In this document: positions 2,574 through 64,000 of the stretch, piece after piece
Numbering within the stretch: position 1 is the first letter of the stretch
Layout of the letters: the number at the start of each line of letters is the position of its first letter
Translations under genes and position numbers: made by a program
Source: a virus
Reading direction: 5' to 3' (one strand)
DNA: 64,000 bases
IMG/VR virus record: IMGVR_UViG_3300025168_000044
Location: 26,957 to 90,956 of that record
The notes under the pieces: model-generated
Database searches by the model: none
What the model saw: the letters and a program-made list of their open reading frames with translations, nothing else
Told to the model about the DNA's origin: nothing

Positions 2574-2897
2574 ATGATTTTAGAACCACATCCTGGCTTA
2601 AAAAACTCGTCAAAGGCCCATCGGTTTAAGAAGTGTCTTGTCGGCGAACAGTTTGGACGGTGGAAGGTTTTGTTAAGGGCTCCTGACATAGACTATCACA
2701 TAGTCTACTGGTGCCAATGCCAGTGCGGATTCATTGGCAGAGTACAAAAAAGGTCTTTAGCTTCTGGCAAAAGTAGGAGCTGCGGATGTTTAAAAAGTGA
2801 ACTGAATCGTAAAGAGTTCAAGTTTAGATGGGAAAATGGCTTTCATAAAAATGGGAAGCTAACTCCTATAAAAAAAAGTAGCCCAGAATCCGATTGA
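2574..2897 (+). CDS. SCGC zinc-cluster protein (copy A)
   Basis: A 107-residue basic protein. The core is FGRWKVL, then WCQCQCG, then LASGKSRSCGC (about residues 26-66), a five-cysteine cluster likely to bind zinc. Similar modules occur beside AP2 and HNH domains in phage nucleases and regulators, but no catalytic domain is attached here. A paralogue on the other strand (39866-40171) matches at about 71 of 101 aligned positions by my count. TAGGAGA lies upstream of the start. Role unknown; nucleic-acid binding is an inference. Confidence 0.75.
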   Translation: MILEPHPGLKNSSKAHRFKKCLVGEQFGRWKVLLRAPDIDYHIVYWCQCQCGFIGRVQKRSLASGKSRSCGCLKSELNRKEFKFRWENGFHKNGKLTPIKKSSPESD

Positions 2898-3472: not shown

Positions 3473-3503
3473 CGTGAAAAACCGGCGCAGTAAATATGCG
3501 GCC
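3473..3503 (-). terminator. Possible terminator after the giant late gene
   Basis: On the minus strand GGC(C)GCA pairs with TGCGCC around an AT loop, followed by GGTTTTTC. It lies 28 bases past the stop of the 4521-residue gene. The bulged stem and short U-run make it a moderate call. The hexamer ACCGGC appears three times here (3481, 3510 and 3520 regions), so integrase arm-type sites are an alternative reading. Confidence 0.4.
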
Positions 3504-26911: not shown

Positions 26912-27167
26912 GAGCCCCTTTTTTTGTGGCTACATTTGTTGGTTTTCCACCAATTGCTTGAGCTTTTGAGCGTTTACGGCGTACTGCCGATTGCTTTTCA
27001 GAATCACTCATTTTAGAAGCTTTAGAACTTGGGACACATTTCGGGTATCCTTTAGAGCTGGTAGATGCTTTCTTGCGACCACATGGCGGGTGAGAGCCAT
27101 CTTTCTTTTTACGAGAGATGTCTACCCATTTCTGTTTATGCCAACTGTCTAACCCTCCTTTTGCCAT
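26892..27167 (-). CDS. Small basic DSWHKQKWVDISRKK protein
   Basis: A 91-residue protein. The start chosen is the ATG at 27167 (MAKGGLDSWHKQKWVDISRK), because it overlaps the stop of the upstream gene as TAATG; a longer frame to 27203 would add 12 unconserved residues. DGSHPPCGR and YPKCVPSSKA suggest a small metal site, followed by a very basic tail (AVRRKRSKAQ). This small-protein type is frequent in marine phages. Function unknown. Confidence 0.7.
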   Translation of the reverse strand: MAKGGLDSWHKQKWVDISRKKKDGSHPPCGRKKASTSSKGYPKCVPSSKASKMSDSEKQSAVRRKRSKAQAIGGKPTNVATKKGAHAKRKK

Positions 27168-29105: not shown

Positions 29106-29846
29106 CTAGGTTAATGTTAAATCGTTACTACCAGCAGAATCGTCACCGATATTAGAAGAGTTCGTAAATTTTAAATAGAAGCCATTAGTTCCATAATTAG
29201 TAATCCCAGAAAAATCCGTTTTTGGCTGATACACAGAATCAACGGTTTGCGCAAAATCACTCGGACTATATACAAAACCGTCAATATAATGGACATCACT
29301 TAATTCGACATGGCAATAACCGGAACTGCCATAAGGATTTCTGCCAATAACAAATGTGTTAATGCCGGAATCTGTTTTATTTAATGCGTAAAATGTGTGA
29401 TTCGCCGGGGGATAAGTGTTTCCTGTGCCAGTTGGACCCGTTATATTTACGTTGTCAACAAATATTTTAACACGATTAGTATCAAGCGTTTGCGTATAAT
29501 CAATTGACATAACTATATGATACAAAGTGCCTGCGACTGGCCCAGCAGTTGATCTTTTGTAGTAGGTATAAGTGTTTCTTTCAATCAACCACCATGTCCC
29601 TGCACCCTGACGCACTAGCATAGTGTCATCAGTACCGTCCCCTTGGCCGAATAATGTATGATCACCAGTAGCAGAAATAGTGACGAATTTAACCCAAGCA
29701 CTAAACGTCATTTTTTGCGTAGATCCAGCAGTAGTTACAGTCCGCGATAAAAAATTACTAGTACCGTTTAAAGTGAGAATTTCGTTGCTATCAAACCCAG
29801 ACCACGGGCCACTGCTGCTATGTACTGTTCCTTGTATAATGCTCAT
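29106..29846 (-). CDS. LamG/concanavalin-like tail fibre protein
   Basis: A 246-residue protein. The fold pattern is that of a concanavalin A-like (LamG) domain: MTFSAWVKF, TLFGQGDGTDDTMLV, WWLIERNTYTYY, LYHIVMSIDYTQTLDTNRVK and KIFVDNVNI, then VHYIDGFVYSPSDF, a strand pattern common at the ends of marine phage fibres. Likely carbohydrate or receptor binding at the virion tip. It overlaps the next fibre gene by one base. Confidence 0.7.
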   Translation of the reverse strand: MSIIQGTVHSSSGPWSGFDSNEILTLNGTSNFLSRTVTTAGSTQKMTFSAWVKFVTISATGDHTLFGQGDGTDDTMLVRQGAGTWWLIERNTYTYYKRSTAGPVAGTLYHIVMSIDYTQTLDTNRVKIFVDNVNITGPTGTGNTYPPANHTFYALNKTDSGINTFVIGRNPYGSSGYCHVELSDVHYIDGFVYSPSDFAQTVDSVYQPKTDFSGITNYGTNGFYLKFTNSSNIGDDSAGSNDLTLT

Positions 29847-30754
29847 TATTCTAACTTCCCACTAACAACAACATATACAAGAGTACCGTCACAAATATAA
29901 CTAAGCCAATAAGTACCTGTTGCTGATATTGTTGTAGCATCTCCAGACTTTATTTTTACAACACTTGTATTTACTGAAACAGTGTAATTACTGCCATTTA
30001 CAAAAATTATATTGCCTGACTGACCTGCTGCTGCGGATACATTCGTAAATGTAAATCCTGACGAAGTAATATGAGCAGTTGGAGTACATTTAAAATTATT
30101 AGTTACTGCCAAGTCAAAAGAACCACCATTTGTAGTTGAATTTGCTGTAACCGTACCTCTATTTGCTGCAGTAAATGTCTGATCTGCAGTTAAGTCAGCA
30201 AGATCAGCATTATAGGCTTGAACGTCTGTTCCAATAGCTAACCCAAGTGTAGTACGTTGGTCTGAAGCAGTAGCATCAGCTAGCAATGCTCTTCCTACTG
30301 CAGTCAAATCAGCAACTGCATAAGTATCTAAATCAGTAGCATAAATCATTTTATTTGCTGCAGTAGTTAACCCACTAATAGAAGTTAGTCCTGCATCTAA
30401 TGGCTGAACGTCAGCTTCTTTTGCTAATCTTACCCAACTAGTTCCATGAGCAAAATAAGCATTGAAATCACTTACTCCTCCAACAACGTCTGTTTCGTCT
30501 GCATGAACATGAGCAAATCTACCATGATTAGCACTTGCTGTAGGTAATAAACTATAACTAGAGTACAGTGGAGGTGCTATTTTTTCATCATGTATAGCTG
30601 CTCCAGAAGATACACTAGCATTTACTACTGCATTTGAAGCTAACTTATCAGCAGTTACTGCATCATCAGCTAGATCTACTTCTACAATAATACCGTCTGC
30701 AATATCTGCTGAAGTTAAAGGTGAAGCTGCTGGGGTTTTTCCTATATAAGCCAT
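29846..30754 (-). CDS. Tail fibre protein
   Basis: A 302-residue protein beginning MAYIGKTPAASPLTSADIAD, then DLADDAVTADKLASNAV, a sequence found at the base of many marine phage fibres. The middle has LDAGLTSISGLTTAANKMIY and Ala/Thr-rich repeats typical of trimeric shafts. The C-terminal end is beta-rich. One-base overlap with genes on both sides. Confidence 0.75.
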   Translation of the reverse strand: MAYIGKTPAASPLTSADIADGIIVEVDLADDAVTADKLASNAVVNASVSSGAAIHDEKIAPPLYSSYSLLPTASANHGRFAHVHADETDVVGGVSDFNAYFAHGTSWVRLAKEADVQPLDAGLTSISGLTTAANKMIYATDLDTYAVADLTAVGRALLADATASDQRTTLGLAIGTDVQAYNADLADLTADQTFTAANRGTVTANSTTNGGSFDLAVTNNFKCTPTAHITSSGFTFTNVSAAAGQSGNIIFVNGSNYTVSVNTSVVKIKSGDATTISATGTYWLSYICDGTLVYVVVSGKLE

Positions 30755-39865: not shown

Positions 39866-40171
39866 TTATTTTCTCTCAGAGATTAATTTGCCGTTTTTAT
39901 GAAGTCCATTATCCCATTTATATTTAAACTCTTTAGAATTTAATTCGCTTTTGTAGCACCCACAAGACTTGCTCCGTCCAGAAGCCAACGACCTTTTTTC
40001 TACTCTGGCAGTGTATCCACACACGCATTTGCACCAGTAGACTATGTGGTGATCTTTGTTTGGTGCACGAAGCAAAACTTCCCACCTCCCAAATCTTTCT
40101 CCAACAAAGCACTTTTTTGTTCTATGTGCTTTTCTAGGATCTTTTATACCTGAGTGAGGTTCTAAAATCAT
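39866..40171 (-). CDS. SCGC zinc-cluster protein (copy B)
   Basis: A 101-residue paralogue of the protein at 2574-2897. The start MILEPHSGIK matches that of copy A and lies just past the previous stop, so the ATG at 40171 was chosen over one at 40225. Cysteine pattern WCKCVCG and LASGRSKSCGC is intact. Inserted between small structural genes and the 629-residue gene; no nuclease domain. Its placement far from copy A and on the other strand suggests a mobile or moonlighting small regulator. Confidence 0.75.
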   Translation of the reverse strand: MILEPHSGIKDPRKAHRTKKCFVGERFGRWEVLLRAPNKDHHIVYWCKCVCGYTARVEKRSLASGRSKSCGCYKSELNSKEFKYKWDNGLHKNGKLISERK

Positions 40172-47677: not shown

Positions 47678-48331
47678 ATGCCTACACAAAAAAATAAAGT
47701 AGAATTATTAGAATATGCTGGATCTGATATATCTCATGCCAGAGCAGCATGGGCTTCTACTAATCAAGAAGTTACTCCAGATAAAATAAAAAGAATAGCT
47801 AAACTACTAAAGTTTCTAGCTGATAATGAACATGGAACTCCCTTTGAACATTCTATGTTATCTTTCCATATACAAGGAGATATAGCTTCTCACATCCATT
47901 GCTTGAAACATAGAACTGGAGTTTCTATAAATACTGAATCTGCTAGGTACAAAGAAATGAAAGATGATCTTTTTTACCTACCGGAAGAATTTTCCTACCA
48001 AAATAATGATGATTTACCTGACTCACCTAGCTTGACAGGCTTAGTAGAAGATCTACACACTCTGTATCACCAGATGCTTACTTTTCTAGTAGAGGATAAA
48101 AAAATAAATAGAAGTAGAGCCAAAGAAGTAGCTAGGTACATTTTGCCTTACTCCCATCAACTCAGGTGGGTAATGACCTTCAATTTCAGATCCTTTATGC
48201 ATTTCCAGAAACTAAGAAATTCAGAACATGCTCAGGTAGAAATAAAAGAAATAGCTGAGAATATGCTGGATCTAGTTAAATATCAGACTGATAGCAAATT
48301 TACTCACTCTCTAAAAGCATTTAATTTATAA
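47678..48331 (+). CDS. thyX: Flavin-dependent thymidylate synthase ThyX
   Basis: A 217-residue enzyme converting dUMP to dTMP with FAD and methylene-tetrahydrofolate. The signature is KHRTGVSINTESARY (77-91), a version of RHRX7S in which Lys replaces the first Arg and one residue is inserted. GTPFEHSMLSFHIQGDI (53-69) supplies the usual FAD-site strand. It supplies thymine nucleotides for the phage DNA, together with the NrdA at 61418. It is a lone rightward gene between two long AT-rich gaps; no strong Shine-Dalgarno is seen. Confidence 0.92.
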   Translation: MPTQKNKVELLEYAGSDISHARAAWASTNQEVTPDKIKRIAKLLKFLADNEHGTPFEHSMLSFHIQGDIASHIHCLKHRTGVSINTESARYKEMKDDLFYLPEEFSYQNNDDLPDSPSLTGLVEDLHTLYHQMLTFLVEDKKINRSRAKEVARYILPYSHQLRWVMTFNFRSFMHFQKLRNSEHAQVEIKEIAENMLDLVKYQTDSKFTHSLKAFNL

Positions 48332-49005
48332 TAATTTATAGTAATAAATAATATAACTTATTATCATCCTATTCACTATATAGTTTTCTAGTATAGAAAT
48401 ACTAAAATTATGTACTGGTTGTATACGGTAACGTATACCCCCCACCTGTCACATCCCACTGGAAATCATTGACGATTTTTTTCTCACAAGATTTTTCTCA
48501 TAAAACAAGAAAAATATATCGCATAATAAATTTATTCTTTCGTAAGAAACTTAATTTTTCATGATAAAAACCATGAGAAAAATAATTGGCTATAAGTTTG
48601 ATAATATATGATATGGAACTCATAACCACATACTAAATATCTTTTAAATGTGCATAAAAAAAGATTTGTTCTTCCTTATTTAGACTTTAGTTTTAAATTG
48701 CCTAGCGCTTAGATGAAAAATTTGCCTAGCAGGGAGATTGCTTGCGTGAACAAATAGTCTAATCCTTACCTAGACAAAAACTAATCCACTACCGATCTTC
48801 TACCTTATAACTATAAGTTATAACATTATATCTTCAGACTATAACTAGCAAAGGATTGACTGGGAAAACTAGATAGATTAAAAAATAGAGTTTTTGTTCT
48901 GATCTCAATAAAAAAAGAATATTTATTTGATTAGTATTAAATAGTCAATGAAAGGAGCAAGACAAGGCGGGAATAGATAGGCAAGTAGTAAACTATCAGC
49001 AGGAC
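48332..49005. promoter_or_regulatory. Long intergenic region after thyX
   Basis: About 670 bases without a convincing gene. Contents: the palindrome at 48421-48438; a weak stem AAATC/GATTT followed by U-residues (48463-48482) that could end thyX transcription; several TTTTCTCAT/ATGAGAAAA motifs (48482-48590); and an AT-rich filler. Regulatory or non-coding RNA use is possible. Confidence 0.4.
48421..48438. promoter_or_regulatory. Perfect palindrome, operator-like
   Basis: GTATACGgtaaCGTATAC has 7-bp arms around a 4-base spacer, about 90 bases past thyX. Size and symmetry suit a dimeric repressor site; the partner is unknown. Confidence 0.5.
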
Positions 49006-56504: not shown

Positions 56505-58754
56505 ATGAAACGATCAACATTCTACACAGAAAAATATAATATAGTGTTTAACTGTAATTTTCCTACTTTGGTCATTGACCTAGAGACTACAGTAAAAAGA
56601 GATAAGGAACGAGGAATTACAGATAACTCTCCGTATAACCCTGAGAATAAAATAGTTTCAATCCATTATTGTGTAGTAGAAAATACTGAAGAAGAAGTTT
56701 ATAAAATAAATGAACCAAAAAGTATTATCTTAAATCATAAAGATGTAGAAAAAGATCATTCATATTTTACGAAAGTGAATGAAGAGTTAAAAGAATTACA
56801 AAAAACAGTAAGTAGATGTCAGGTATGGTGCGCCCATAACAGTAAGTTCGATCTGTCATATATGAGGCAGACTCAAAACCTACCTACTATGCCTGTATTT
56901 TTGTGGGATACAATGGTTGTTGAGTACCTATTAGCTAGAGGCATGAGACTACCTTTATCCTTGGCTAAAACTGCTGTAAGGCGAAATGCCCCAAATAAAA
57001 AAAGTGATTTAGTCGATACATTATTCAAGAAAGGGGATGGCATAGGATTTGACGAAATTCCTTTAGATATTCTTCTGGAATATGCAGAACAAGATGTTTT
57101 GACTACAGCACATATTTACATAGAGCAGAGAAGATTGATGGAGGAACAGAGGAATGTAGGGTTACAGCCTCTGGTGTATATGTGTAATGAATTCGCTAAA
57201 ACATTACAAGGCATCGAAAGCAACGGTATACCTATAGATTTAAACAGACTCAAAGAAGTTGAAAAAAATTATGTAAAAGAGAAAGAAGAATTATTGATTG
57301 GCCTAAATGAAATGTCTAAATTTTTAATGGGAGATAAACCTGTTAATTTAAATTCTGGAGCAGACATATCAGAACTAATCTATTCAAGAAAAATAGTAGA
57401 CAAGCAATATCATAAAAGAATTTTTAATATCGGGTGTGATGATAAAGGAAAATCTTTGCGTCCACCGAAAATGAGTACTAAAGATTTTAGATACGAAATA
57501 AGATCAAATTTTAATGTTATAAAAAAACAAAAATCTCAGCACTGCTCAGACTGTAAAGGCAAAGGAAAGATTTTTAAAATTAAGAAAAACGGAGAAAGGT
57601 ACAAACGTGAAAATATATGTGGGGAATGTAACGGAGAAGGATTTATCTATAATGATACATCAGAAACTGCAGGACTGAAACTTAGCCCTGATAATCCTCA
57701 TGACTGTTCAGTTCATGGGTTTAAATCAGATAGAAAAACTATTGAGAAATTACTGACTAAGCTGGAGATTTGGGAAGATACTCCCAAAAAGGATGTAGCT
57801 AAAAGATTTTTATCTTCTTATATCAGATTATCTTCAATCAATACCTATCTAGAGAGTTTTGTTAAAGGTATTAAATACTGGACTAGATCTGCCTCTTCTC
57901 TACTCCATCCTAATTTTAACCAATGCATAACCAGAACTGGAAGACTGAGTAGTTCAAATCCTAACTTTCAGAATCAGCCGAAAGGTAGATTATTCCCCGT
58001 CAGGCAATGTGTAGTGAGTAGATGGGCTGATAGGGGAGGAAAGATTTTAGAAGCGGATTACTCAGGTCTAGAATTTAGGATTGCTGGTGAACTTTCCAAA
58101 GATCCTCAGATCATAAAAGATATTTTAGAAGGTAGAGATGTTCATAAGCAAACTGCATCAATCATTAACCAATGTAAAGAAGGAGATGTAACTAAACAGA
58201 TGCGGCAGGAAGCGAAAAAATATACTTTTGCTCCTCTTTACGGTGGTCAAGGCGCAGGTGAACCACCCCATATTGCAACCTATTTTAAGGAGTATTTTAA
58301 AATTTATGAACGATTAAGAGCATGGCATGACGAGTTACAGACTGAAGCTGTAAAGTTTGGTACTGTAACTACCCCGTCTGGAAGAGAGTTTTTCTTTCCA
58401 GACACTGTTCGATTATCTAATGGTGGGTCTTCAAACGCTACCAACATTAAAAATTATCCAGTTCAATCATTCGCTACGGCAGACATAGTTCCTCTTGCAG
58501 TTCATCGAATGAATTCAGCCTTAGATACGATGAATTCTCTCGTTATTATAACTGTACATGATTCTATTGTGATTGATGTGTACCCAGACGAATTGGATAA
58601 GATAATTGAACTTTTAGTTTTTACAATGACAGATCTTCCAGACGAATTTCTTGCTAGATTCAACTACTTAATATCTACTCCTTTAGATATTGAAATACAG
58701 ATTGGAGATAACTGGATGGAAATGGAAGAAATTACTATACCAGAAATAGTTTAA
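56505..58754 (+). CDS. polA: Family A DNA polymerase with DnaJ-type zinc finger
   Basis: A 749-residue replicative polymerase. 3'-5' exonuclease: Asp25/Glu27 (VIDLET), Asn112/Asp116 (HNSKFD), Asp197 (YAEQD). Residues about 345-382 form a zinc module: CSDCKGKGK (Cys347, Cys350) and CGECNGEGF (Cys372, Cys375), as in the DnaJ central domain. Polymerase: motif A DYSGLEFR (Asp518), O-helix R567-K571-F575-Y579, motif C VHDS (His685, Asp686). Residue 575 is the position of E. coli Phe762 and is Phe here, a state often linked to virulent phages. The same fusion is the hallmark of HMO-2011-type phages. No 5'-3' exonuclease domain. Confidence 0.95.
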   Translation: MKRSTFYTEKYNIVFNCNFPTLVIDLETTVKRDKERGITDNSPYNPENKIVSIHYCVVENTEEEVYKINEPKSIILNHKDVEKDHSYFTKVNEELKELQKTVSRCQVWCAHNSKFDLSYMRQTQNLPTMPVFLWDTMVVEYLLARGMRLPLSLAKTAVRRNAPNKKSDLVDTLFKKGDGIGFDEIPLDILLEYAEQDVLTTAHIYIEQRRLMEEQRNVGLQPLVYMCNEFAKTLQGIESNGIPIDLNRLKEVEKNYVKEKEELLIGLNEMSKFLMGDKPVNLNSGADISELIYSRKIVDKQYHKRIFNIGCDDKGKSLRPPKMSTKDFRYEIRSNFNVIKKQKSQHCSDCKGKGKIFKIKKNGERYKRENICGECNGEGFIYNDTSETAGLKLSPDNPHDCSVHGFKSDRKTIEKLLTKLEIWEDTPKKDVAKRFLSSYIRLSSINTYLESFVKGIKYWTRSASSLLHPNFNQCITRTGRLSSSNPNFQNQPKGRLFPVRQCVVSRWADRGGKILEADYSGLEFRIAGELSKDPQIIKDILEGRDVHKQTASIINQCKEGDVTKQMRQEAKKYTFAPLYGGQGAGEPPHIATYFKEYFKIYERLRAWHDELQTEAVKFGTVTTPSGREFFFPDTVRLSNGGSSNATNIKNYPVQSFATADIVPLAVHRMNSALDTMNSLVIITVHDSIVIDVYPDELDKIIELLVFTMTDLPDEFLARFNYLISTPLDIEIQIGDNWMEMEEITIPEIV

Positions 58755-58766
58755 ATATAGGTTAAT

Positions 58767-59681
58767 ATGCCAGAAAAATTAAGTGCTGATCAGATGAAAG
58801 ATCTTTCCGTTCCTGCTGAAATGTTGGAAGAAACGCTCAAAGCATTGGGAGCAGGTACTAAAAATATTGAGAGATTACCAAATCTTAAAGTTCAGTTAGC
58901 TAAAAAAGATGATCAAAATCGGAGAGTGCCAGAAGGACATTTCTTTCTAAAGCATCCACAGATTGAACCTGCGTACTCTCCAAGGGTAGTATTTCGGCCT
59001 TTATCAATGCTCTACCAATGGATTGACTATGATCAAGAGAATAACTCTGTGAAGAATAAAACTATCCTAGTTTCTAACTTCCAAGCAGAGCCTAGAGATC
59101 AGCTTGGTACAGTAAGATGTGGTAAACCTACTTCTAAAGTATTTAGAGATTTACCTAAATTTGAACAAAAGAAGTATGGGACTATTCGATGTTTCAGACA
59201 GTTGAGAGGAGTAGTGTCTTTTACTGGCACTACTGCAGATAAAGAAAAAGTAGAGTTCGATAGATCACCTTGCATCCTTCTGTTGAAAGGAAGTAATTTT
59301 ATTCCATTCGATAATCAGGTAGTCAATACACTACCTGCTAGTAGACTCTTCCATGAATTTAATGTTCAGCTTGAAGCTGAAGAAATGATTAATGGAGCAG
59401 TAACTTACTACGTCATTAAATTTACGCCTGATTATGCTAAACCTTTAGTTTTTGACCCAGAAACAGTCAAAACTATGACTATGTTCAAGGATATGATTCA
59501 AATGGAAAATGTTTCTATTGAAACGCAACATCAGAATAATTTGGCTAAGAATCAAGGTAAGCAGTATGGAACGAAAATTGATAAAGAAGAACAAGTACTT
59601 ACTGCGAAAATCATAAATCCTCATGGTGAGACTGAAGAGGAATATGATGATGATTCTTTAGATGATGACTTCAATAATTAA
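58767..59681 (+). CDS. Probable single-stranded DNA-binding protein
   Basis: A 304-residue protein just after PolA. A beta-rich core (about 60-240: PRVVFRPLSMLYQWIDYD, GTIRCFRQLRGVVSFTG) is followed by a strongly acidic tail (EEEYDDDSLDDDFNN), the usual partner-binding end of phage SSBs. No OB-fold motif is provable by eye, so the assignment rests on position and tail. Confidence 0.6.
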   Translation: MPEKLSADQMKDLSVPAEMLEETLKALGAGTKNIERLPNLKVQLAKKDDQNRRVPEGHFFLKHPQIEPAYSPRVVFRPLSMLYQWIDYDQENNSVKNKTILVSNFQAEPRDQLGTVRCGKPTSKVFRDLPKFEQKKYGTIRCFRQLRGVVSFTGTTADKEKVEFDRSPCILLLKGSNFIPFDNQVVNTLPASRLFHEFNVQLEAEEMINGAVTYYVIKFTPDYAKPLVFDPETVKTMTMFKDMIQMENVSIETQHQNNLAKNQGKQYGTKIDKEEQVLTAKIINPHGETEEEYDDDSLDDDFNN

Positions 59682-59703
59682 TTTTATTACTAATAATTTA
59701 TAA

Positions 59704-60027
59704 ATGAACCAGCAGAAGAATAGAGGGATTTTTCCTAAAACTTTTTTGACTAATAAGACAAAGAGAGAACTGGGGAAAGTTAGAGAATCTTGTGATCTGC
59801 TGGTACAACAGACTAGCCCATTTTTAGAAAAAGAATCTACAGACTTTGGTGAGATAGAAAAAGACAGTGAACACTATGAAGCTATAAAAAAATACATGGA
59901 GAAAGGAGGGACGATAAAAAAATATAAACCTTTACTACAAAAAATAGAAGTAGATCAAAATGTAGTAGACGAAAAAGATATAAAAGACATAAAAAATTTT
60001 AAATTAGGATTTCAGAAACTAGAATAA
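59704..60027 (+). CDS. Small unknown protein, replication operon
   Basis: A 107-residue lysine/glutamate-rich protein (KRELGKVRESCDLLVQQTSP..., MEKGGTIKKYKPLLQKIEVD). No known domain. It lies between the SSB-like gene and a nuclease gene. Confidence 0.55.
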   Translation: MNQQKNRGIFPKTFLTNKTKRELGKVRESCDLLVQQTSPFLEKESTDFGEIEKDSEHYEAIKKYMEKGGTIKKYKPLLQKIEVDQNVVDEKDIKDIKNFKLGFQKLE

Positions 60028-60032
60028 TTATT

Positions 60033-60938
60033 ATGATTTCTCTTATAGAAGTAAAAATAAAAAATGTACTAGAAAAGTTGAGCAACAATAAACATTCAGA
60101 GGTAGCACCAGAAGAAAAGATAGATAAGCTAATTGATGAAGCATGTGTAGAATTTAAGTTAGTACTTGAAAAACAATTCAAAAGGAAAAAAGAAAAGTTC
60201 AGACTACGTTCCTCAAATGTTGGAAAGCCTACTTGTCAATTACAGCTAGAGAAGAAAGAGTTACAAGAAGAAGAAATAAACCCACTTCCATACAATCATT
60301 TTACTAGAATGGTTTTGGGTGATCTATCTGAAATTATTGTTAATTTTATTATAAAACTTACTGACATAAAAATTACTGGGGCAAAAAATAAAATAAGATG
60401 GGATTTATTTGGTGGTAACAAGAAATATCCTGTTATTGAGGGGGAGAATGATATCGAACTGGAAGAGAAAGTTTATGACATAAAATCCTCCAGTCCTTGG
60501 GCCTATGAGAATAAATGGATGAAAGGATTTTCTGGAGTTGCAGGTACAGATAATTTTGGCTATATTGACCAACTTCTTTCTTACTCTTTACCTCAGAATA
60601 AAAGACCTGGAGGTTGGATTGTCTTAAATAAATCTACAGGAGAAATAACTGTAGTTGAATTTTCTATGTTAGAAACTGAGCAGAAACAAGAAGTTGCAAA
60701 AATAAAAGAAACTATAAAGTACATTACAGAGGATCATTCTTTTAAAAAATGTTTTGATGAACAGGATGAATATTTCTACAGAAAACCTACAGGCAATAAA
60801 AAATTGCCTGTAACCTGTAGTTTCTGTAGTTTTGTAAGACATTGCTGGCCGGATGCTCAGTATCTTCCTCAAGCCAGATCAAAAGCTCAAAATCCAAAAA
60901 TGGTTTGGTACACTCATTATACTGAAGAAGATGAATAA
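60033..60938 (+). CDS. RecB/Cas4-like PD-(D/E)XK exonuclease
   Basis: A 301-residue protein. EGENDIELEEKVYDIKSSSP (about 131-150) holds the nuclease core (Glu, Asp, D-I-K). TRMVLGDLSEIIVNFI is the preceding helix and CSFCSFVRHCWPDAQYL (about 267-283) a C-terminal Cys cluster, the arrangement of RecB/Cas4-type exonucleases, often with an iron-sulfur cluster. It probably degrades or recombines DNA, in line with a gp6-like job in T7. Confidence 0.72.
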   Translation: MISLIEVKIKNVLEKLSNNKHSEVAPEEKIDKLIDEACVEFKLVLEKQFKRKKEKFRLRSSNVGKPTCQLQLEKKELQEEEINPLPYNHFTRMVLGDLSEIIVNFIIKLTDIKITGAKNKIRWDLFGGNKKYPVIEGENDIELEEKVYDIKSSSPWAYENKWMKGFSGVAGTDNFGYIDQLLSYSLPQNKRPGGWIVLNKSTGEITVVEFSMLETEQKQEVAKIKETIKYITEDHSFKKCFDEQDEYFYRKPTGNKKLPVTCSFCSFVRHCWPDAQYLPQARSKAQNPKMVWYTHYTEEDE

Positions 60939-60947
60939 GGAGCAGGG

Positions 60948-61421
60948 ATGTTTTATGACTACAGAAAATTTAGAGGAATACAACATGGCTATAGGAGTGG
61001 GCTAGAAGATAAAATTGCTCAACAGTTAAAAAAAGCTAACATATCAGTAGAATACGAAACACTCTCAATAAAGTATACCGTACCTGCGATTATCAGAACT
61101 TACACTCCAGATTTTTTCCTACCTAACGGTATAGTCATTGAAAGCAAGGGAAGATTTACTACAGAAGATCGAAAAAAACATCTTCTGATAAAGAAACTAT
61201 TTCCAGAATTAGACCTGAGATTTGTATTCTACAATTCAAAATCTACTTTAAGAAAAGGGAGTAGAACTACTTATGCGGATTGGTGTGAGAAGAACAATTT
61301 TTTATATTGTGATAGATACATAGATGAAAATTGGTTGAATGAAAAAATTAATTTGAATTCGTTTAACTTAGCAATGAATTTTTTAAGAATAAAAAAACCA
61401 GTGAGGGGTAAGAAGAAATGA
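60948..61421 (+). CDS. Endonuclease I (T7 gp3-like Holliday resolvase)
   Basis: A 157-residue protein. GYRSGLEDKIAQQL carries Glu20, TYTPDFFLP Asp55, and VIESKGRF Glu65 and Lys67, the same four residues at the same positions as the T7 endonuclease I active site. It resolves four-way junctions and debranches DNA for packaging. Its stop overlaps the NrdA start. Confidence 0.9.
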   Translation: MFYDYRKFRGIQHGYRSGLEDKIAQQLKKANISVEYETLSIKYTVPAIIRTYTPDFFLPNGIVIESKGRFTTEDRKKHLLIKKLFPELDLRFVFYNSKSTLRKGSRTTYADWCEKNNFLYCDRYIDENWLNEKINLNSFNLAMNFLRIKKPVRGKKK

Positions 61422-63214
61422 TGTTGCGTAACGATATAAAAATGGATTTTAGCAGGGACTGTTTATTCGATGAATTAGGATTAGCTAGATTATCAGAATC
61501 TTATATGCTTCCAAGTGAAGAATCTCCTCAAGAAAGATTGGCTTATGTTTCTTCCAAGTTTGGTTCTAATCGTAAACATGCCCAACGATTGTACGATTAC
61601 TCTTCTAAGCATTGGCTTTCCTATTCCACTCCTATACTCAGTAACGGCAGATCTAGCAGGGGATTACCCATTTCCTGTTTTCTATCATATTTAGAGGATA
61701 CTGCAGAGGGTTTGGTAGATACTCTTAGTGAAGTAAATTGGTTAAGTATGTTAGGAGGAGGAGTAGGTATACACGTTAAAATCAGAGAAGTAGATGAAAA
61801 AAGTACTGGAGTAATGCCCCACCTTAAAGTCTATGATGCTTCTTCTTTGGCATACAGACAGGGCAGAACTAGGAGAGGATCTTACGCAGCATTTTTAGAT
61901 ATAGATCATCCTGATATTCTACAGTTCTTAGAAATGAGAAAATTTACTGGAGATCAAAATTATCGGACACATAACCTGCATCATGGAGTAAATATTTCCA
62001 ATAATTTCATGGAGCTTATCTTTAACTGCATGAAAGAAAAAAACTATGATGATTCTTGGGAATTAATTTCTCCTAATACTGGAGATACAATAGAGGTTGT
62101 ATCAGCTAAGTATTTGTGGATGAAGATTTTAGAAACGAGAATGGAAACTGGAGAACCTTTTTTAATATTTTTAGATACTGCAAACAGTAAACTACCCCAT
62201 TGGCTAAAAGAGAGGGAGTTGAAAATTAATGGGAGTAATTTATGTACTGAAATATTTCTTCCTACTTCTTCCGAAAGAACTGCAGTCTGCTGCTTATCCA
62301 GTTTAAATTTAGAATATTTTGATGATTGGAAAGATAATCCTGATTTTATCCTAGATGTGATGGAAATGCTGGATAATGTTATAGATAATTTTATAGAAAA
62401 TTCTCCTGCTGAAGTGGGTAGAGCAGCTTTTTCTGCTATGCGAGAAAGATCGATAGGAATTGGAGCATTAGGTTTTCATGCTTACTTACAAAAAAATTCA
62501 ATCCCCTTTGAAGGGATTGCCGCAGTATCTATAAACAGAAAAATTTTTAAGCATATTCATACCGCATGTATTGACGCAGATGAGATATTAGCTGACAGTA
62601 GAGGAGCATGTCCAGATGCTGCTGATGCTAAAGTCCATCGTAGATTTTCACACCATATGGCTATTGCCCCTAATGCTTCTAGTAGCTTAATTATGGGTAA
62701 CACCTCTCCTTCTGTAGAACCGTACAGAGCCAACGTCTACAGGCAAGATACTCTTAGCGGAGCATATATACAGAAAAATAAATTCTTAGAGAAATGGTTG
62801 ATAGAAAATAATTTAAATACTGAGAAGATTTGGAGCAGCATCATATCTAACTCAGGGTCAGTACAACATCTTGATATTCCTAGAAATATTAAAGAAATAT
62901 TTAAAACTGCCAATGAAATAAATCAGAAATGGGTAATTGAGTTAGCCAGTAACAGACAGGATTATATAGACCAAGGGCAGTCTATAAATTTATTTTTTGA
63001 TCCTGATGTAGACGTTCAGCAGTTACATGCCTGTCATGCTTTAGCTTGGAAGGCTGGATTAAAATCTTTGTATTACTGTAGAAGTGATAAATTAAGAAAA
63101 GCAGATAAAGTTGGAGAAAAAATAAAAAGAGAGAAGATACTTACACAAGAAGAAATAACTAAGTTAACTAATTTAGCTGAAGGAGAAGAAGTCTGCATAG
63201 CATGCGAGGGATAA
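61418..63214 (+). CDS. nrdA: Ribonucleotide reductase class I alpha subunit
   Basis: A 598-residue NrdA without an ATP cone. Cys87 (LPISCFLSYL) and Cys291 (AVCCLSSLNL) fit the redox pair, GSNLCTEIFLP gives Asn274, Cys276 and Glu278 of the thiyl site, SLYYCRS carries the radical-path tyrosine pair, and EEVCIACEG the C-terminal CxxC. It reduces ribonucleotides with a beta subunit, which is not in this window and may lie beyond its right end. Shorter than host enzymes, as in marine phage NrdA. It starts inside the previous stop (ATGATG). Confidence 0.93.
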   Translation: MMLRNDIKMDFSRDCLFDELGLARLSESYMLPSEESPQERLAYVSSKFGSNRKHAQRLYDYSSKHWLSYSTPILSNGRSSRGLPISCFLSYLEDTAEGLVDTLSEVNWLSMLGGGVGIHVKIREVDEKSTGVMPHLKVYDASSLAYRQGRTRRGSYAAFLDIDHPDILQFLEMRKFTGDQNYRTHNLHHGVNISNNFMELIFNCMKEKNYDDSWELISPNTGDTIEVVSAKYLWMKILETRMETGEPFLIFLDTANSKLPHWLKERELKINGSNLCTEIFLPTSSERTAVCCLSSLNLEYFDDWKDNPDFILDVMEMLDNVIDNFIENSPAEVGRAAFSAMRERSIGIGALGFHAYLQKNSIPFEGIAAVSINRKIFKHIHTACIDADEILADSRGACPDAADAKVHRRFSHHMAIAPNASSSLIMGNTSPSVEPYRANVYRQDTLSGAYIQKNKFLEKWLIENNLNTEKIWSSIISNSGSVQHLDIPRNIKEIFKTANEINQKWVIELASNRQDYIDQGQSINLFFDPDVDVQQLHACHALAWKAGLKSLYYCRSDKLRKADKVGEKIKREKILTQEEITKLTNLAEGEEVCIACEG

Positions 63215-63219
63215 CATAG

Positions 63220-63654
63220 ATGAGTAAATATAGACGTATATATCCACCGATTACACCAGACCAACATTTTACATATTGGAGAACATTATATAAGTCTCCT
63301 AAAGTTTTAGGAGGCCCGAATAGAACTTACTGGTACTGCCAATGTATCTGTAACTCAAAACATCATGTAAGAGCAGATCAATTAGTTAATGGTAAGTCAA
63401 AGTCTTGCGGATGTTTAAAGTCTGCTTACCTTTTTAATTGTGAAAATAAACAGTTCAATTGTTGGACTGTATTAAAAATAGATAAGATTATAAACACACA
63501 TAGGTATGCGTTATGTAGATGTGTATGTGGTTATGAAAGTCTAAGAAGATTATCGTCTATAAAACAAGGAGCATCCAAATCGTGTGGTTGCCAACCTAAG
63601 AACTACCCTAAAACAACGAAAAAGTGTGCTTACTATGGGAAGAAAATCACTTAA
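63220..63654 (+). CDS. Tandem SCGC zinc-cluster protein (copy C)
   Basis: A 144-residue protein with two copies of the zinc-cluster module: YWYCQCICNSKHH...GKSKSCGC (about 42-67) and ALCRCVCGYES...GASKSCGC (about 92-126). No catalytic domain. It follows nrdA by five bases, so it is part of the early operon. Binding of nucleic acid is inferred from relatives beside AP2/HNH domains. Confidence 0.75.
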   Translation: MSKYRRIYPPITPDQHFTYWRTLYKSPKVLGGPNRTYWYCQCICNSKHHVRADQLVNGKSKSCGCLKSAYLFNCENKQFNCWTVLKIDKIINTHRYALCRCVCGYESLRRLSSIKQGASKSCGCQPKNYPKTTKKCAYYGKKIT

Positions 63655-63991
63655 TGATTTAGCAGGAGAAGAATTTGAGCATTTAAAAGCTGTAGAAATA
63701 TCTCATGTGTGCAATAAAACGACATTTTGGAAATGTCTTTGTACTTTATGCGGGAACTACACTGTAGTTCAAAGAAGTAATCTAGTAAGCGGAAATTCTT
63801 CTTCTTGTGGATGTAGAAAAGGAAAAAATATTCTAATAGCGGAATTAGCAGGGTGCGCTCCAAGTGCCGTGTCCGCTATTTTGCGTAATAAATACAGAGG
63901 TGCAACGTGCGCCACTCGTAAAAAGACTGACAAGATAAAAGCTTTGGCTAAAGAACTTAATCATACGCCTTGGTACAACCTAAACACTTAA
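63635..63991 (+). CDS. SCGC zinc cluster fused to LacI-type HTH (copy D)
   Basis: A 118-residue protein. The start is the ATG at 63635 (MGRKSLNDLAG), giving a 20-base overlap with the previous gene; an upstream ATG would fall deeper inside it. The N-terminal half has FWKCLCTLCGNYTVVQR and LVSGNSSSCGC. The C-terminal half has LIAELAGCAPSAVSAILRNK, then ATRKK and ALAKELNHTPWYN, which fits a LacI-type HTH with its hinge helix. I know of no named protein of this architecture; a phage transcription regulator is likely. Confidence 0.7.
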   Translation: MGRKSLNDLAGEEFEHLKAVEISHVCNKTTFWKCLCTLCGNYTVVQRSNLVSGNSSSCGCRKGKNILIAELAGCAPSAVSAILRNKYRGATCATRKKTDKIKALAKELNHTPWYNLNT

Positions 63992-64000
63992 TATAAAACT

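Follow-up and report, generated by a model that had tools for sequence, protein, structure and literature searches.

A small open reading frame (ORF) at the extreme end of a viral contig raises the question of what a phage protein might do that joins a five-cysteine SCGC zinc module to a LacI-type helix-turn-helix (HTH). The contig is an IMG/VR record of 90,956 bp, of which we analysed positions 26957–90956, a stretch of 64,000 nucleotides referred to here as the window. The frame runs uninterrupted from an ATG at 63635 to a TAA at 63989–63991, and reproduces the protein quoted in the sequence-only reading that preceded this work. This protein, P0001, has cysteines at positions 26, 34, 36, 39, 58, 60, 74 and 92. 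Judged by terminase and DNA polymerase, the window phage is closest, among named phages, to Roseobacter phage CRP-3 with its relatives and to Puniceispirillum phage HMO-2011. The record also holds two phage structural gene sets, including two terminase/portal-like sets, one in G000 1–27000 (L009, L010) and one in window positions 3500–47000, and the protein of L009 3–1013 is 48% identical to that of window 29846–30754, with near-identical C-termini. These doubled sets could represent tandem prophages or a chimeric assembly. The features discussed below are collected in the table.

Table. Features of the SCGC+HTH locus and related genes in the window
Feature	Coordinates	Strand	Basis
P0001, 118 aa, module 3 and LacI-type HTH	63635..63991	+	Open frame; orthologs 50–55% identical
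SCGC module, residues 9–60 (C34, C36, C39, C58, C60)	63659..63814	+	phrog_374 match, nine-sequence alignment A5, model strands
LacI-type HTH, residues 60–112 (helices 60–72, 76–83, 95–107)	63812..63970	+	Pfam, PDB profile search, model
Short disordered tail and stop where the LacI hinge would be	63971..63991	+	PDB alignment, model
P0002, 144 aa, SCGC modules 1 and 2	63220..63654	+	Matches N-terminal half of single-ORF orthologs; phrog_374 E = 3e-20
Overlap of the P0002 and P0001 ORFs, 20 nt, +1 frame relation	63635..63654	+	ORF reading
Module-only SCGC protein, paralog, separate from the HTH gene	2574..2897	+	Related SCGC module
Module-only SCGC protein, paralog, separate from the HTH gene	39866..40168	-	Related SCGC module
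nrdA, ribonucleotide reductase large subunit	61418..63214	+	Pfam Ribonuc_red_lgC E = 1.8e-107; synteny

The fusion of an SCGC module to a LacI-type HTH in P0001 is real. Residues 3–65 match phrog_374 (HNH endonuclease) with an E value of 2.4e-14, and relatives of the protein exceed the Pfam cut-off for LacI, as detailed below. All nine members of the SCGC+HTH family match phrog_374 over the module and contain the CxC(x)xCG...SCGC arrangement, the five cysteines of which are residues 34, 36, 39, 58 and 60 of P0001. Across 11 diverse SCGC modules F14, C36, C39, G40, C58, G59 and C60 are invariant, and from the invariant cysteines we infer that the module binds zinc. The structure model predicts a beta-hairpin with a zinc knuckle (strands 17–26, 29–36 and 42–46). 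The CapR homology domain (PF21817) gives a sub-threshold match over the module (16–24 bits against a cut-off of 24.2) and rises above that cut-off in none of the family members tested; literature searches on this domain and on the SCGC motif returned nothing relevant and no role assigned to the module. The record encodes six SCGC modules in five genes: two in P0002, one in P0001, one in each module-only paralog and one in a gene left of the window. The two paralogs, encoded beside the integrase gene (2574–2897) and in the structural region (39866–40168), are alike, both beginning MILEPH, and look like duplicated stand-alone modules.

The SCGC module is widespread among phage nucleases. In our viral-contig sample an HNH-like motif was present in 60 of 172 dereplicated SCGC proteins, 22 of the 172 had almost nothing after the module, and a Pfam scan of 150 SCGC proteins found DUF2726 in 14, HNH_3 in nine and AP2 in four. 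Besides the 60 with the HNH-like motif, many of the 172 have DUF2726, another nuclease domain or AP2. These counts bear out the earlier remark that the module usually accompanies AP2 or HNH domains. LacI was found in only two or three of the 150 scanned, and three of the 172 have the LacI-type HTH. Since the module mostly accompanies domains that cut or bind DNA, and since a LacI-type HTH follows it in P0001, a role in DNA recognition is likely on the basis of domain content. The fusion had also been called new, which holds in part: searches of 50,697 named phages, of plasmids and, by exact pattern or profile scan, of GTDB genomes found none, within the limits set by a fixed spacing or by sequence similarity, but the exact module+HTH pattern is present in about 12 IMG/VR contigs. 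The module scans used fixed-spacing DNA patterns, which miss other spacings, because the 11 aligned modules vary too much for scanning with a single profile. Relatives with one module and the HTH occur in other phages, with their own start codons and in unrelated contexts. Six full-length-like matches (Listeria phage LM 4-14-1, Javan362, pYD6-A, Kharn, Klebsiella phage GArcari-2022b and a Variovorax plasmid) were opened and rejected as lacking the LacI-type HTH; by eye, most have AP2-like or HNH-like ends. The GArcari-2022b protein (L351 677–1477) appears by eye to combine the SCGC module with an HNH-like region and C-terminal HTH-like repeats, so that the nuclease is kept.

Orthologs of P0001 were sought by pattern scans of IMG/VR combined with ORF reading, and a profile scan then gave seven viral contigs (L254–L260) in which a single ORF of 240–243 residues encodes the same HTH preceded by three SCGC modules; modules and HTH together account for the full length of the protein. 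The last 118 residues of these proteins are 50–55% identical to P0001 and the first half is 47–50% identical to P0002. The module set is thus divided in the window, with modules 1 and 2 in P0002 and module 3 plus the HTH in P0001. The interval 63635–63991 is an open ORF, as first described, but covers only the second of two ORFs that are a single gene in relatives; similarly, the view that the protein has one SCGC module holds for P0001 but not for this longer gene.

One possible, though tentative, reading is that the two window ORFs are one three-module+HTH gene, either frameshifted by mutation or assembly error or expressed by a programmed +1 shift, and that there is no separate 118-residue protein. 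The single ORF at the same site and in the same order in seven contigs agrees with this, as do the +1 relation of the frames and the ATG at 63635, which has no Shine-Dalgarno sequence (-0.4 kcal/mol), whereas the start at 63220 has a good one (-6.4). An independent, identical contig (L263) stops at 63512, and so provides no check on the junction. However, modules 2 and 3 are separated by a linker of 73 nt in the window versus 39 in the single-ORF orthologs, a difference of 34 nt rather than of one base, and the ATG at 63635 lies exactly on the module boundary. The N-terminus of P0001, MGRKSLNDLAGEEF, is similar to those of the stand-alone one-module+HTH proteins, MPRKVDYSIVGESF, MKRDYSIIGEEF and MARRRDESIIGQQF (L342, L099 and L053), which makes an independent start at 63635 plausible, and free-standing T4 endonucleases with 20-nt overlaps are known. 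The frameshift reading concerns the form of the gene and is compatible with a nuclease-less DNA-binding protein.

The location of the gene is shared as well. The order polA, ..., endonuclease I, nrdA, SCGC+HTH gene, nrdB, MazG-like is conserved, with the SCGC+HTH gene lying just after nrdA in the window (5 nt separate the nrdA stop from the P0002 start) and in the seven contigs, and between nrdA and nrdB in relatives. We surveyed 82 loci that have both nrdA and nrdB, a number that includes some contigs more than once. In 22 relatives the gap is empty (at most 40 nt; 9–39 nt), and it measures 735–782 nt where the SCGC+HTH gene is present (L254–L260). Insertion between conserved genes, with an empty site in relatives, is a pattern of the free-standing (mob/seg) homing-endonuclease type. 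At other loci the gap is filled by different genes, thioredoxin-like and other ordinary cargo, so location alone is no proof of a homing origin; at one (L331 5517–6191) it holds a gene for a SegE-type GIY-YIG endonuclease (28.6 bits against a cut-off of 25). No sigma-70-type promoter was found on the coding strand in 62900–64000, and no group I intron or other known RNA in 58000–64000. Inside the P0002 ORF, at 63407–63425, is a terminator-like stem with a T-rich tail, which recalls the terminator within T4 mobE and may be due to chance (one found versus 0.5 expected). The reductase of the window phage is class I (nrdA/nrdB type, 61418–63214), and that of the nearest named phages, HMO-2011 and CRP-3, is cobalamin-dependent.

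The protein could also be a targeting subunit acting in trans, its HTH and zinc module guiding a separate nuclease, either another SCGC protein or endonuclease I, to homing sites. The SCGC module is common to nucleases, mobE of T4 acts in trans to mobilise a defunct element, and the gene for phage endonuclease I lies close by, at 60948–61421. We nevertheless consider this improbable, as endonuclease I is a standard phage gene that is found in HMO-2011 too, without an SCGC+HTH protein, and the stand-alone relatives sit in other contexts.

No Pfam match to a nuclease (HNH, GIY-YIG or PD-(D/E)XK) was obtained in the window ORFs or in the three-module orthologs; lacking a nuclease, the SCGC+HTH protein is not a homing endonuclease. 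The missing nuclease domain and the split gene in the window might suggest a functionless, decaying remnant of one, yet this is very improbable given that dN/dS is about 0.2 in modules and HTH, that the frames are open in three diverged lineages and that the same architecture recurs elsewhere. Pairwise dN/dS among the ortholog lineages L254, L258 and L259 is 0.18–0.22 for the whole protein and 0.17–0.30 for the HTH, compared with 0.05–0.06 for nrdA in the same lineages; very close pairs differ too little for such estimates, and window-to-ortholog pairs are saturated at silent sites. The SCGC+HTH protein is therefore maintained by purifying selection and evolves faster than the adjacent nrdA enzyme. 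Descent from a nuclease is suggested by the shared modules and by the gene location. As no nuclease-bearing sister with the same HTH turned up, an alternative is that the HTH joined a module-only protein.

The HTH that follows the module, its first helix beginning at the last module cysteine, is weakly supported by P0001 alone and solidly by its relatives. Residues 68–112 match Pfam LacI (PF00356) with E = 0.0045 and 17.2 bits, under the 27-bit cut-off, but two orthologs (L254 and L259; 28.0 and 29.0 bits) and two stand-alone relatives (L342 and L053; 32.4 and 27.3 bits) lie above it. A family profile, built from the nine-sequence alignment A5 and searched against the PDB, gave 28 matches at E ≤ 1, almost all of them heads of LacI-family proteins, among them FruR/Cra (the best, E = 1.7e-4), RbsR, CytR, LacI, CcpA and PurR, aligned over approximately residues 5–49. 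Structure prediction, which had been suggested as a check, agreed: the model of P0001 (mean pLDDT 76, pTM 0.56) has the beta-hairpin module followed by three helices with the HTH, and a fold search of the PDB ranks the FruR head and CcpA highest (probabilities 0.95 and 0.98, with weak E values of 0.4–0.5). With the 243-residue three-module model, the whole-chain fold search gave nothing useful; the FruR head appeared at rank 6 (probability 0.98). That the HTH similarity arose by chance, the C-terminus having another helical fold, can be dismissed in spite of the sub-threshold Pfam score of P0001 and the weak fold-search E values, because orthologs and relatives pass the cut-off and the PDB profile returns LacI heads.

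Two further parts of the sequence-only reading were not upheld. The alignment to LacI was said to run residue by residue, but there is an insertion of about four residues between helices 2 and 3 relative to LacI heads, somewhat as in FruR. It was also said to include hinge helices. The LacI hinge helix comprises residues ~50–58, and the match in P0001 stops at LacI residue ~49, a few residues before the end of the protein (...TPWYNLNT*), where residues 114–118 have pLDDT below 50 and form no helix. The hinge helix has no counterpart, since P0001 ends at that point, and we ruled it out from the end of the PDB alignment and the disordered tail of the model. No C-terminal sugar-binding-like regulatory domain is present either, as nothing comes after the HTH in the 118 residues. 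Having neither hinge nor regulatory domain, P0001 does not belong to the LacI/GalR family, and without a hinge or any known dimerisation domain it would not be expected to bind operators cooperatively as LacI does.

The operators proposed earlier were not supported. A perfect 7-4-7 palindrome at 48421–48438, GTATACGGTAACGTATAC, lies in a gap of about 740 bp downstream of the gene at 47678–48331; with one exact copy in the window and none in any of the fetched relatives, it was ruled out as a shared operator. The other candidate region, 489–704, is directly upstream of the gene for a CI-like S24 repressor (705–1319), which is the more likely user of those sites. We found no operator for the SCGC+HTH protein.

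The best reading of these comparisons is that P0001 carries module 3 and the putative DNA-reading head of a small, rare, nuclease-less phage family. We lean slightly towards a nuclease-less DNA-binding protein, co-opted from homing endonucleases as a regulator and working like the binding half of I-TevI; its DNA binding, its regulatory role and its descent from homing endonucleases are each matters that we infer. The gene may have arrived between nrdA and nrdB as a free-standing cassette of the homing-endonuclease type without a nuclease domain. The zinc module or modules could grip DNA beside the HTH, as zinc finger and HTH do in I-TevI, and the protein could act as a repressor or modulator of transcription, with a specific target on the phage genome that may lie in the early or nrd region. 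A broader reading, which we regard as unlikely, is that there is a class of homing-endonuclease-derived, nuclease-less DNA-binding regulators, linked in this phage to dNTP synthesis through the nrd genes, and that the window phage makes modules 1–2 and module 3 with the HTH as two proteins, with a frameshifted fusion as an option. The P0001 family may document a homing-endonuclease arm recruited as a regulator. A natural SCGC module joined to a well-understood DNA-reading head, with no nuclease, offers a clean test of DNA recognition by the module.

Compared with known systems, the SCGC+HTH head is nearest to those of FruR/Cra and RbsR, sharing the same three-helix head of PF00356 (LacI residues ~5–49) and, with FruR, an extended loop joining helices 2 and 3. 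In LacI proteins this head is N-terminal, whereas here it is C-terminal, directly after the zinc module, and is followed by neither hinge helix nor ligand-binding domain. The phrog_374 HNH endonucleases (for example L007, with three modules and an HNH-like end) have the same five-cysteine module, often in tandem, but in the SCGC+HTH proteins a LacI-type HTH replaces the HNH or other nuclease domain. The T4 GIY-YIG homing endonuclease I-TevI likewise uses a zinc module and an HTH as its DNA-binding arm, and doubles as an autorepressor (PMC2988022); the SCGC+HTH protein differs in having no catalytic domain, in the type of both zinc module and HTH, and in being free-standing rather than intron-encoded. 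Several free-standing endonucleases of T4 overlap the upstream ORF by 11–24 bp, and half lack a clear ribosome site (PMC2988022); the upstream-ORF overlaps of segC, mobA and mobC are like that between P0002 and P0001 (PMC2988022). T4 mobE, a free-standing HNH endonuclease gene between nrdA and nrdB, resembles the window gene in position, in that no promoter of its own was found and in a start codon overlapping the upstream ORF (PMC2988022), though the SCGC+HTH gene encodes no HNH domain, and its overlap is with the preceding SCGC ORF and not with nrdA.
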